Below, in pieces: positions 47,924-50,521 of a DNA stretch of 64,000 nt. Location: assembly GCF_902506105.1 (NCBI RefSeq), contig NZ_LR733304.1, positions 1,016,334 through 1,080,333 of the forward strand. Reading direction: 5' to 3'. The notes beneath the pieces were generated by a model. The model was given only the letters and a program-made list of their open reading frames with translations, was not told the DNA's origin and searched no databases. Source of the DNA: Aeromicrobium sp. 9AM (lineage in GTDB: Bacteria > Actinomycetota > Actinomycetes > Propionibacteriales > Nocardioidaceae). Every line of letters starts with the position of its first letter. The first letter of the stretch is position 1. The position numbers and the translations under genes are program-made.

Positions 47924-47997
47924 CGGGCTGTAGCGCAGCTTGGTAGCGCACCTGACTGGGGGTCAGGGGGTCGCAGGTTCAAATCCTGTCAGCCCGA
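47924..47997 (+). tRNA. tRNA-Pro (anticodon GGG)
   Basis: 74 nt. Acceptor CGGGCTG/CAGCCCG, D arm with TAGCGCAGCTTGGTAGCGCA, anticodon stem CCTGA/TCAGG with loop CTGGGGG, so anticodon GGG at 47958-47960, and T arm GGTTCAAATCC with discriminator A at 47997; CCA is not encoded. TAAAGT at 47903-47908 may be its -10, 16 bp before the mature end. Confidence 0.95.
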
Positions 47998-48021
47998 CGT
48001 TGTGATCTTGCAAGAGAAACA

Positions 48022-48079: not shown

Positions 48080-48988
48080 TCAGGTCACCTGGGTCATCGA
48101 GACCAGCTCGTGCTGGGGCATCGGGTTGTCGCGGGTGGCCTTGCAGGTGAGCTGCACGAGCTCGGCGCCCGGCATCGTGCGGACCTGCACGTCCCAGCGA
48201 ACGTCACCGACGGCGAACGTCGCGTCGGTCAGCTCGTTACGTCTCTGCCGGGACACGAGGCGTACGGCGCCCTCGCGGGTCTCACCCAGGTGGCGGCGCA
48301 ACGCGAGCTCGGCGAACTGCACCGGCATCGTGTACGAGGAGCGGCCCCGGAGGCGGTCGAGGTCGAGCCGCCCGGCGACATGCCCCTCGGCGACTGCGAC
48401 GGACGATTCGGCATCGAGACGTCCGTAGTAGAGGCCTTGGGGGAGCACCAGCATGTTGCCGGCGAAGCGGTCGCCGCCGATGTGCGAGACCTCCCAGGTC
48501 TGCTGGGGGTACGCCTCAGCCAGCGCCGCAGCGACCGGGCGGCCGCGCTCGGCGCAACAGGCGTCGTGGCGGCCGTGCGTGCACACGCAGAAGAGCGGTG
48601 CGTCGTACGGCGTCAGGCCCATCGAGCGTCCGGCACCCAACGCGGCGAGGTCGAGATCGAGCAGCTCGTGCGGATCGGTCAGGACTGTCGCCTCGATCCA
48701 CGAGCGCGACGGGTGGGCGAAGGCCGCGAAGACCTGCACGCCGGCCTCGTCGGTACGCCGATCCGGTCGACGTACGAGCAGCGGACGGACCTTGGCCGCA
48801 GCCGCCGCACGCCTCAGGGAGTCGCCCAACCCGTCAGGCAGCCGAGCGTCCCGCAGCGCGTCGACGCCCCAAGGACCGGGGTGCTCGACGAGCAGGAACG
48901 CCCGGACGGTCGATGCCGTACCCGTCATCGGCTCGTCCCGCTGGTCGCTGGCGATCGCGCAACGGAAGGCGGGGTCGCGAGAGGTCAC
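48080..48988 (-). CDS. Sucrase/ferredoxin-like protein (third gene of repeat-peptide operon)
   Basis: 302-residue thioredoxin-fold protein of the Suc_Fer-like family (PF06999). The key cysteine motif is CVCTHGRHDACCAERGRP near 142-159, followed by AYPQQTWEVSHIGGDRFAGN. Such proteins bind or resemble [2Fe-2S] ferredoxins. GTG 48988 overlaps the stop of the JmjC gene (GTGA), showing coupling. A possible role is electron supply to the oxygenase or reduction of a product; the sequence alone does not settle it. Confidence 0.85.
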   Translation of the reverse strand: MTSRDPAFRCAIASDQRDEPMTGTASTVRAFLLVEHPGPWGVDALRDARLPDGLGDSLRRAAAAAKVRPLLVRRPDRRTDEAGVQVFAAFAHPSRSWIEATVLTDPHELLDLDLAALGAGRSMGLTPYDAPLFCVCTHGRHDACCAERGRPVAAALAEAYPQQTWEVSHIGGDRFAGNMLVLPQGLYYGRLDAESSVAVAEGHVAGRLDLDRLRGRSSYTMPVQFAELALRRHLGETREGAVRLVSRQRRNELTDATFAVGDVRWDVQVRTMPGAELVQLTCKATRDNPMPQHELVSMTQVT

Positions 48989-50115
48989 GAAACGACCTCG
49001 AGCATCCCTTCCCGCACCAGTCGGCGGCAGAGCACGAGCCGACTCTGTGGGTCGAGGTGCTCGGCGAGGTCTCGTGGGGCGAGCTCTCGGCGCTCCCGCA
49101 GGTCGTCCAGAGCGGGTCGCAGCCATCCGGGCACGTCGATGGAGCGGTCGCCCAGCAGCACGTCGATGCGGTCGCCGCGCGCGAGCAGCACGCAGGGGCT
49201 CCCGGGCCGGCGCCGCAGCACGGTGTCGTCGTCGATCGCACCGGCCGCGAGGACGTCGTGCAACCCACCGGACAGGCGCGGACTGCGAGTCGTGAGGAAC
49301 CGGCGCACCTCGGCCTCCACCGCTGCGGTCGTGTCGACGCTGCGAATCTGTGCCGCCAGCGACTCCAGCCGGTGCCCGAGCTCGTCGGCGAGTCCGGCCG
49401 GGTCGTCGAGGTAGCCCGCCGGCAGGTGCGCTTCGGCGACACGGGACACGACGTCAGCCAGGCTGCGCTCGACGAGACCACGCCAGGTCAGCTGGTTGAT
49501 GCCGATCGTGACGTGGAGCGAGACCGTGTCCTGCGCGCGCGCCGCGTGCGGGGTGCCGGTCGGCAGATACATCGACAACCCGGGCTCGAGGAGCACGTCG
49601 TCGACGCCGTCGGGAGCGTGGACCTCCCACTGCTTCGACCCGGCGGTCTGGAAGACGAATACGTCGTGGGAGTCGCTGTGCACCGCGAAACCCTGCGCTC
49701 CGGGCGGGGTGAGGTAGGCATTGGCCTGGCACGGATGGCCGATCTCAAGCTCGAGCTCGGCGACGAGACGGGTCAGCGGCGGCCAGTAGCGGTGCAGGCC
49801 TTGGAAGACGACGGTCGCGCCGCCCTCGAACAGCGCCAGAGCCTTGCGGGCGTCCACCAGACCGGTCAGCGGCTTGCCGGCGAGGGTCGCGCCGCGGGTG
49901 TACGCGGACTCGGGCAGCACGGCGCCGTCCTTGGCCACGCGGACCGACGGCGTACGAATGGCGGACGAGGTGAGCAGGGTGTCCACGTCGTCAAGGGACA
50001 GCAGATCGGCCAGGTCGTCAGGGTTGGCTCGGTGAAGGTGCACCTGCGACGCCCAGACCTTCGAGATGAAGGTCTGGGCGTCGCCGCTGAGCAGGTCGAG
50101 CGCGGATCCGGACAC
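48985..50115 (-). CDS. JmjC/cupin oxygenase, RoxA-like
   Basis: 376-residue protein of the cupin_4/JmjC group (PF08007), whose known members RoxA (YcfD) and NO66 hydroxylate ribosomal-protein residues with Fe(II) and 2-oxoglutarate. The metal triad is visible: HSD within FAVHSDSHDVFVFQTAGSKQ near 143, and His in YLPTGTPHAARAQD. A C-terminal helical part (about 230-376) is the dimer/winged-helix region of this family. GTG 50115 follows the repeat peptide by 2 bp and the end overlaps the ferredoxin-like gene by 4 bp. The substrate may be the neighbouring peptide. Confidence 0.85.
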   Translation of the reverse strand: MSGSALDLLSGDAQTFISKVWASQVHLHRANPDDLADLLSLDDVDTLLTSSAIRTPSVRVAKDGAVLPESAYTRGATLAGKPLTGLVDARKALALFEGGATVVFQGLHRYWPPLTRLVAELELEIGHPCQANAYLTPPGAQGFAVHSDSHDVFVFQTAGSKQWEVHAPDGVDDVLLEPGLSMYLPTGTPHAARAQDTVSLHVTIGINQLTWRGLVERSLADVVSRVAEAHLPAGYLDDPAGLADELGHRLESLAAQIRSVDTTAAVEAEVRRFLTTRSPRLSGGLHDVLAAGAIDDDTVLRRRPGSPCVLLARGDRIDVLLGDRSIDVPGWLRPALDDLRERRELAPRDLAEHLDPQSRLVLCRRLVREGMLEVVS

Positions 50116-50117
50116 GG

Positions 50118-50363
50118 TCAGGACGCGTCGCCGTCCGTGGTGTCCGTGGCATCGCCGTCGGTCCCGTCGGAATCCGTGCCGTCGCCGTCGGTGCCGTCGG
50201 AATCGGTCGTGTCGCCGTCCGTGGTGTCGGTGGCGTCGCCGTCAGTGCCGTCCGCGTCGCCGCCGTCGGTCCCGTCGGCGTCGCCGCCAGAACCTGTGGG
50301 GCCGCCGGTCTGGCTGGTGATGAGGTCGTCGTCGCTGAGCGGCTCTTCAGGGGTGTTGGTCAT
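50118..50363 (-). CDS. 81-residue acidic repeat peptide (D/G/T/S/A only in C-terminal part)
   Basis: ATG 50363 is preceded by a perfect AGGAGG. The first 26 residues begin MTNTPEEPLSDDDLITSQ and end in a TGG/GG segment; residues 27-81 use only Asp, Gly, Thr, Ser and Ala, with 21 Asp. Units are GDADGTDG twice, DATDTTDG, two DxTDSDGTDG and another DATDTTDG. No Cys, Lys, Arg or aromatic residue occurs in this part. It may be a modified peptide, a calcium-binding Asp-rich chain or a substrate of the JmjC protein. No known family is assigned. Confidence 0.75.
   Translation of the reverse strand: MTNTPEEPLSDDDLITSQTGGPTGSGGDADGTDGGDADGTDGDATDTTDGDTTDSDGTDGDGTDSDGTDGDATDTTDGDAS
50121..50285 (-). 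repeat. In-frame tandem repeat encoding D-x-T-D-G units
   Basis: 165 bp of imperfect 24-30-bp repeats, all multiples of three, coding residues 27-81 of the acidic peptide. Short words such as GGTGTCGGTGGCGTCGCCGT (plus strand) recur with third-base changes. Such arrays expand and shrink readily, so length variation between strains is expected. Confidence 0.85.
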
Positions 50364-50521
50364 GTGTCCTCCTGTAGCGAAACGGTTCGCCGCCCGATGA
50401 GACGGCTCGTTCACAGTCTGCTGCCACCGCTCAAGGCGGACAACCCGAGGAATCGCGGGAGTCCACGATTCGGTCCTGCAGACGGCGGGCGCGCCAGCCA
50501 CAACGGGCCTAGGGTGGCCCC
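50364..50521. promoter_or_regulatory. Divergent region with leaderless promoter for the 50522 gene
   Basis: TAGGGT at 50510-50515 ends 6 bp before ATG 50522, as in leaderless actinobacterial transcripts. On the other strand AGGAGG serves the repeat peptide. A promoter for the minus-strand operon is expected near 50400-50450, but none is distinct. Confidence 0.6.

Follow-up and report, generated by a model that had tools for sequence, protein, structure and literature searches.

The window, the 64,000-nucleotide stretch of Aeromicrobium sp. 9AM DNA that was analysed, contains an operon of three genes, all on the minus strand, for an Asp-repeat peptide, a JmjC oxygenase and a Suc_Fer protein (Table 1). 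The JmjC gene has a GTG start 2 nt past the stop codon of the peptide gene, and the Suc_Fer gene, also with a GTG start, overlaps the JmjC stop by 4 nt. The first-pass annotation had described this same arrangement, from the ribosome site of the 81-residue peptide to the 4-bp overlap, and it could be read directly from the sequence, with Pfam supporting the assignment of both enzymes.

None of the three operon proteins has a trusted NCBIfam model, and neither the peptide of the window nor the related peptides matched a named Pfam or NCBIfam family. A promoter scan of the operon found none, and a single terminator-like site beyond its end was no better than those given by shuffled sequences. 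The host genome has a single JmjC_2 gene and a single Suc_Fer gene, both of them in this operon. A PqqD-family gene is also present in the genome but far from the operon (G000:C7:2920516-2920716, L217), and a tRNA-Pro (GGG) gene at positions 47924-47998 of the window is convergent with the operon. Phage origin was rejected as no phage match was found and all plasmid matches had less than 60% identity.

Table 1. Features of the operon, in window coordinates. Residue numbers refer to the protein in question.
Feature	Position	Strand	Remarks
Ribosome-binding site AGGAGG of peptide gene	50368..50373	-	4 nt before ATG; from sequence
Peptide gene, proposed precursor/substrate	50118..50363	-	ATG start, 81 aa
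Leader motif LSDDDLIT (residues 9-16), proposed recognition sequence	50316..50339	-	Equivalents in other families and classes
Repeat core (residues 28-81), proposed modification site	50121..50282	-	21 D, 13 T, 12 G, 5 A, 3 S
JmjC (PF08007) Fe(II)/2-oxoglutarate oxygenase, NO66/MINA53-like	48985..50115	-	376 aa; Pfam E=1e-18
Active-site stretch of oxygenase	49546..49680	-	H146 (49678-49680), D148 (49672-49674), K161, H190 (49546-49548)
Winged-helix domain of oxygenase (residues 296-376), candidate leader-binding	48988..49230	-	Model: strands then three helices
Suc_Fer (PF06999), thioredoxin-like [2Fe-2S] ferredoxin-type	48080..48988	-	302 aa; Pfam E=5e-19
Cys motif C136 to C145 with operon-specific H141 (48566-48568)	48554..48583	-	C136, C144, C145 invariant
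Second cluster motif H169-x-G-G-D173	48470..48484	-	D173 at predicted [2Fe-2S] ligand position

Linkage of the peptide and oxygenase genes

Relatives were drawn from named genomes, from genus and order relatives and from samples of 345 genomes of the class and 296 genomes of the phylum. Loci were selected via the JmjC gene and not via the peptide. This gave 159 loci of the JmjC subfamily, eight of which end too close upstream, leaving 151 that were testable. In all but two of these, 149 loci, the JmjC gene is preceded by a gene for an Asp-rich peptide, so that the putative precursor lies beside the enzyme as is usual for RiPPs. The first-pass annotation had proposed that the peptide is the substrate of the oxygenase; when checked by co-occurrence, the peptide was neither absent nor unlinked in most genomes.

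The two testable loci without the peptide, L023 and L024, look like outliers. Directly upstream of the JmjC homologue (1453-2706) of L023, in genome G055, there is a gene resembling, by eye, a SagB-type dehydrogenase, which suggests another RiPP-type context. Two loci counted within the 149, L134 and L135, encode an acidic peptide that does not show the usual repeat; the only Suc_Fer protein of their genomes is of the ordinary HxGGH form and located elsewhere. More distant JmjC_2 genes (L118-L121, L123, L129, L143, L153 and L155-L158) have short upstream peptide ORFs of other types, for example MQEQQFDGDLMVAVEEITTERSRGDQPSDGGGTGRSDTNDGIR, and often no Suc_Fer gene. Loci with a JmjC gene plus a peptide may form a larger group extending beyond the Asp-repeat type.

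The unit is spread across the actinobacterial phylum but its distribution is patchy, a matching JmjC gene being found in 13 of 37 genomes of the same genus. Its surroundings also differ. The der gene was seen at no locus except that of the window, a single further genome (L003) shares the gene on the far side of the peptide, and none of 20 other loci scanned has the tRNA-Pro gene. General synteny as the cause of the linkage is ruled out by these differences. Among 64 distant loci no neighbour beyond the trio was recurrent except inside single lineages, nor was any dedicated protease, exporter or immunity gene, proteases and exporters being common with RiPPs though not required. The differing neighbourhoods and the lack of any other recurrent gene in these loci indicate that the unit is held together by function and not by synteny.

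The peptide and its leader and core

The core of the window peptide is 54 amino acids long and 21 of these are Asp. Comparison of orthologues of the same length showed approximately three to four times as many differences at third codon positions as at first or second positions, the window and L003 peptide genes having 5, 5 and 24 differences at codon positions 1, 2 and 3 respectively. This excess indicates that the protein is under selection despite the repetitive DNA. The upstream ORF richest in Asp was also identified, by one procedure, at these loci and at two sets of control loci. It reached at least 15% Asp in 130 of the 148 loci from this JmjC subfamily, in none of the 24 where a Suc_Fer gene stands alone and in 1 of the 22 with a different JmjC_2 gene. 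Orthology, the third-position excess and the control loci rule out both a DNA microsatellite and a chance ORF.

Across classes the peptides have almost nothing in common except a short acidic leader motif. It reads LSDDDLIT in the window and LNDDDMTT (LxDDDMTT) in members of the same order with 8-Mb genomes; family f7 has LDDDDITT, and LTDEEIETV or LSDDDIETV is found outside the class. The peptides of some lineages do not have the acidic motif. Within the window's own genus a divergent operon (L011, L013, L015 and L020-L022) encodes a GPADGGAEGTPGVQDGGADGGA-type peptide without the DDD leader motif.

The number and type of the core repeats, in contrast to the shared acidic motif, differ between orthologues (DGTDGD, GPADGGAEGTPGVQDGGADGGA, (DGGA)n, DADGTDADGTD and ADADASDADA), a conserved leader joined to a variable core being the pattern found in RiPPs. 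For the first 122 peptides, Gly, Asp, Ala, Thr and Ser make up 87% of the sequence past residue 20 and approximately 61% of the Asp residues have Gly next. Only Asp, Gly and Ala occur in the core of L113, and the core of L199 is composed almost entirely of Asp, Ala and Ser, which leaves Asp as the sole functional side chain common to all cores.

It could be argued that the peptide is a disordered acidic partner, such as a chaperone, inhibitor or scaffold, of an oxygenase acting on ribosomal or other proteins, given that the enzyme is in the ribosomal-oxygenase fold group and that strongly acidic proteins are able to imitate nucleic acid or attach to basic surfaces. However, the leader is kept while repeat number and sequence vary widely, a precursor-like behaviour, and only part of the genus carries the operon, which would not be expected of a conserved modification of the ribosome. 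Such a role is considered very unlikely. As judged from the sequences, the linkage in 149 of 151 loci, the phylum-wide leader and the fast-changing cores that nevertheless keep Asp strongly support the proposal that the peptide would be a dedicated substrate of the oxygenase.

The oxygenase and its C-terminal domain

Alignments A1 and A3 show no variation in the HxD...H motif or in the presumed 2-oxoglutarate-binding Lys, and the protein has all of the features of the JmjC_2/NO66-MINA-YcfD superfamily (JmjC fold, HxD...H and a 2-oxoglutarate-binding Lys/Arg). The model of the oxygenase, mean pLDDT 91, matched NO66 over its full length (Z 27, rmsd 5.4, 360 residues, 22% identity) with MINA53 and YcfD as the next structural matches, and a profile search of solved structures agreed. 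The enzyme had been called RoxA-like in the first-pass annotation; it is indeed a JmjC oxygenase but the structure and profile comparisons place it closer to NO66/MINA53 than to RoxA/YcfD.

The likeness to NO66 (RIOX1), MINA53 and YcfD (RoxA) extends over the whole-length fold, including a C-terminal winged helix, and the HxD...H iron site. Unlike those proteins, to which it is only ∼20% identical, the operon enzyme is encoded beside its own small peptide gene and is absent from most genomes of the genus. The patchy distribution and the linked peptide would argue against hydroxylation of ribosomal proteins by this enzyme.

NO66 and MINA53 are known beta-carbon hydroxylases, and the shared fold points to a beta-hydroxylase in the operon. 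JmjC/cupin-like enzymes have been proven to hydroxylate RiPP precursors, on ornithine, in biphenomycin-type pathways (PMC12707348, PMC12257519). The enzymes concerned, BipG and PbsQ, are JmjC/cupin-like 2-oxoglutarate enzymes like the operon enzyme, for which peptide modification is predicted. They differ in that they target ornithine and are found in clusters with an MNIO, a radical SAM enzyme, a transporter and a protease, whereas the operon has no such genes and an Asp-repeat core. An MNIO is known to beta-hydroxylate Asp in a RiPP (PMC13060819), which makes a hydroxy-Asp product chemically reasonable. Hydroxylation of Asp by the JmjC enzyme is plausible, with Asp proposed as the target from the composition of the cores alone.

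The JmjC enzyme might instead carry out other oxidative chemistry on the core, for example cross-linking, desaturation or backbone oxidation. 2-Oxoglutarate oxygenases are capable of more than hydroxylation, and the cores are rich in Gly and Ala as well. Furthermore, an alpha-ketoglutarate-dependent macrocyclisation has been reported in RiPPs (Xia et al. 2025, as cited in a passage of PMC12710340). This is nevertheless judged quite unlikely as the nearest structural relatives are hydroxylases and the known RiPP JmjC enzymes hydroxylate.

The order of secondary structure in the C-terminal domain, strands then helices, is the one used to define an RRE in the relevant passage of PMC12710340. The passage also places PF08007-RRE fusions, as bacterial homologues, in RiPP-like contexts, and the operon enzyme resembles them in having a JmjC_2 domain followed by a winged-helix domain. 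The fusions differ in that the passage gives them neither a precursor nor a product nor a Suc_Fer partner. The operon enzyme also differs from them in that comparison of its C-terminal domain with the PqqD profile gave no support for PqqD/RRE membership. A full-length domain was found together with the leader motif in 124 cases, a short domain without the motif in 18 and a full-length domain without the motif in 5. The 2 loci with a short domain and a motif are truncated contigs. Shortening of the domain where the motif is missing fits a reading of the leader by the winged-helix domain, which would be its function. Nearly all of the short domains are in one clade and so the association counts as about one evolutionary event.

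The Suc_Fer protein and the proposed modification

The model of the Suc_Fer protein (pLDDT 94.5) has a thioredoxin-like [2Fe-2S] ferredoxin fold, with best structure matches to 1f37/1m2d/5abr, and a sizeable additional domain at its N-terminus, which contains invariant residues. The profile match and the fold place it in the Suc_Fer-like superfamily (PF06999), and it has the Cys motif and HxGG motif of Suc_Fer/Apd1-type proteins (the Apd1 site is described in PMC11126956). Two positions set the operon type apart when 146 operon-type proteins were compared with 17 stand-alone Suc_Fer proteins. Residue 141 is His in 139 of the 146 but the fixed Arg in 17/17 stand-alone proteins. Residue 173, the second His of HxGGH in 15 of the 17, is Asp in 144 operon-type proteins and Cys in the other 2. 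Operon-type sequences therefore do not have the two Cys plus two His (HxGGH) ligands of the Apd1 type. Nearly all other invariant residues are common to both types. That Asp and Cys are the sole replacements at 173 suggests that this residue may still be a cluster ligand. Two stand-alone proteins of family f18 (L178 and L179) have HxGGD yet retain Arg at 141, a possible intermediate form.

The Suc_Fer gene adjoins the oxygenase gene in 142 of the 159 loci and is not adjacent in the other 17. The HxGGD variant is encoded away from the oxygenase in four genomes of family f27 (G096, G111, G123 and G136), for three of which the peptide-JmjC locus was read (L144, L124 and L127). The diagnostic residue changes, kept even when the gene is elsewhere in these four genomes, are in keeping with the maturation operon proposed below. 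However, no Suc_Fer match was found in the whole genomes G230, G138 and G156, which keep the peptide and the oxygenase. This indicates that Suc_Fer is not strictly needed, the peptide and oxygenase being the core of the system and Suc_Fer a frequent specialised helper.

In [2Fe-2S] dihydroxyacid dehydratases the cluster acts as a Lewis acid. The Suc_Fer protein could similarly be a second modifying enzyme in which the cluster, at its Cys/His/Asp site, dehydrates or otherwise converts beta-hydroxy-Asp and is not an electron carrier. In keeping with this, the operon type departs from the stand-alone proteins at two sites that do not otherwise vary, one being a predicted cluster ligand, and its N-terminal domain has invariant residues. 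The fact that most invariant residues are common to the stand-alone proteins, together with the retention of peptide and oxygenase by some genomes that have no Suc_Fer match, makes it doubtful. The first-pass annotation had the Cys-motif protein supplying electrons or a further modification; given the non-adjacent loci, the three genomes without a match and an altered cluster site that would also fit a second activity, electron supply should be regarded as one option only. The wider proposal of a phylum-wide RiPP-like class, in which leader-guided JmjC enzymes would make poly-hydroxyaspartate peptides that Suc_Fer then modifies, for example by dehydration, to give metal-binding peptides, is unlikely.

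The reading preferred here, with a probability of roughly 0.55, is a minimal RiPP-like maturation operon in which the JmjC enzyme, guided by the leader, beta-hydroxylates many of the core Asp residues, and from which we infer a metal-binding product. The oxygenase would bind the leader motif, probably via its C-terminal winged-helix domain, and with Fe(II), O2 and 2-oxoglutarate would beta-hydroxylate many of the core aspartates. The product would be a poly-hydroxyaspartate peptide suited to the binding of metal ions, which is perhaps its function. Less certainly, the [2Fe-2S] Suc_Fer protein would keep the iron of the oxygenase reduced or would act on the hydroxylated residues. Since the operon has no protease or exporter, general enzymes may process the product, or it may remain intracellular.

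No description of the trio, the peptides or the peptide sequence strings was found in a search of 5.39 million open-access papers. From its genes and their relatives, the operon apparently represents an undescribed family of modified bacterial peptides, and the chemistry of Suc_Fer is the part most likely to surprise. If the preferred reading is correct, this would be a small and widespread peptide-modification system in which the substrate is genetically linked to its JmjC enzyme. With only three small genes it should be easy to reconstitute. Asp-repeat peptides would join RiPP chemistry, and the poorly understood Suc_Fer/Apd1 family would gain a defined partner as well as a natural His-to-Asp comparison at a predicted cluster ligand for the study of [2Fe-2S] coordination.
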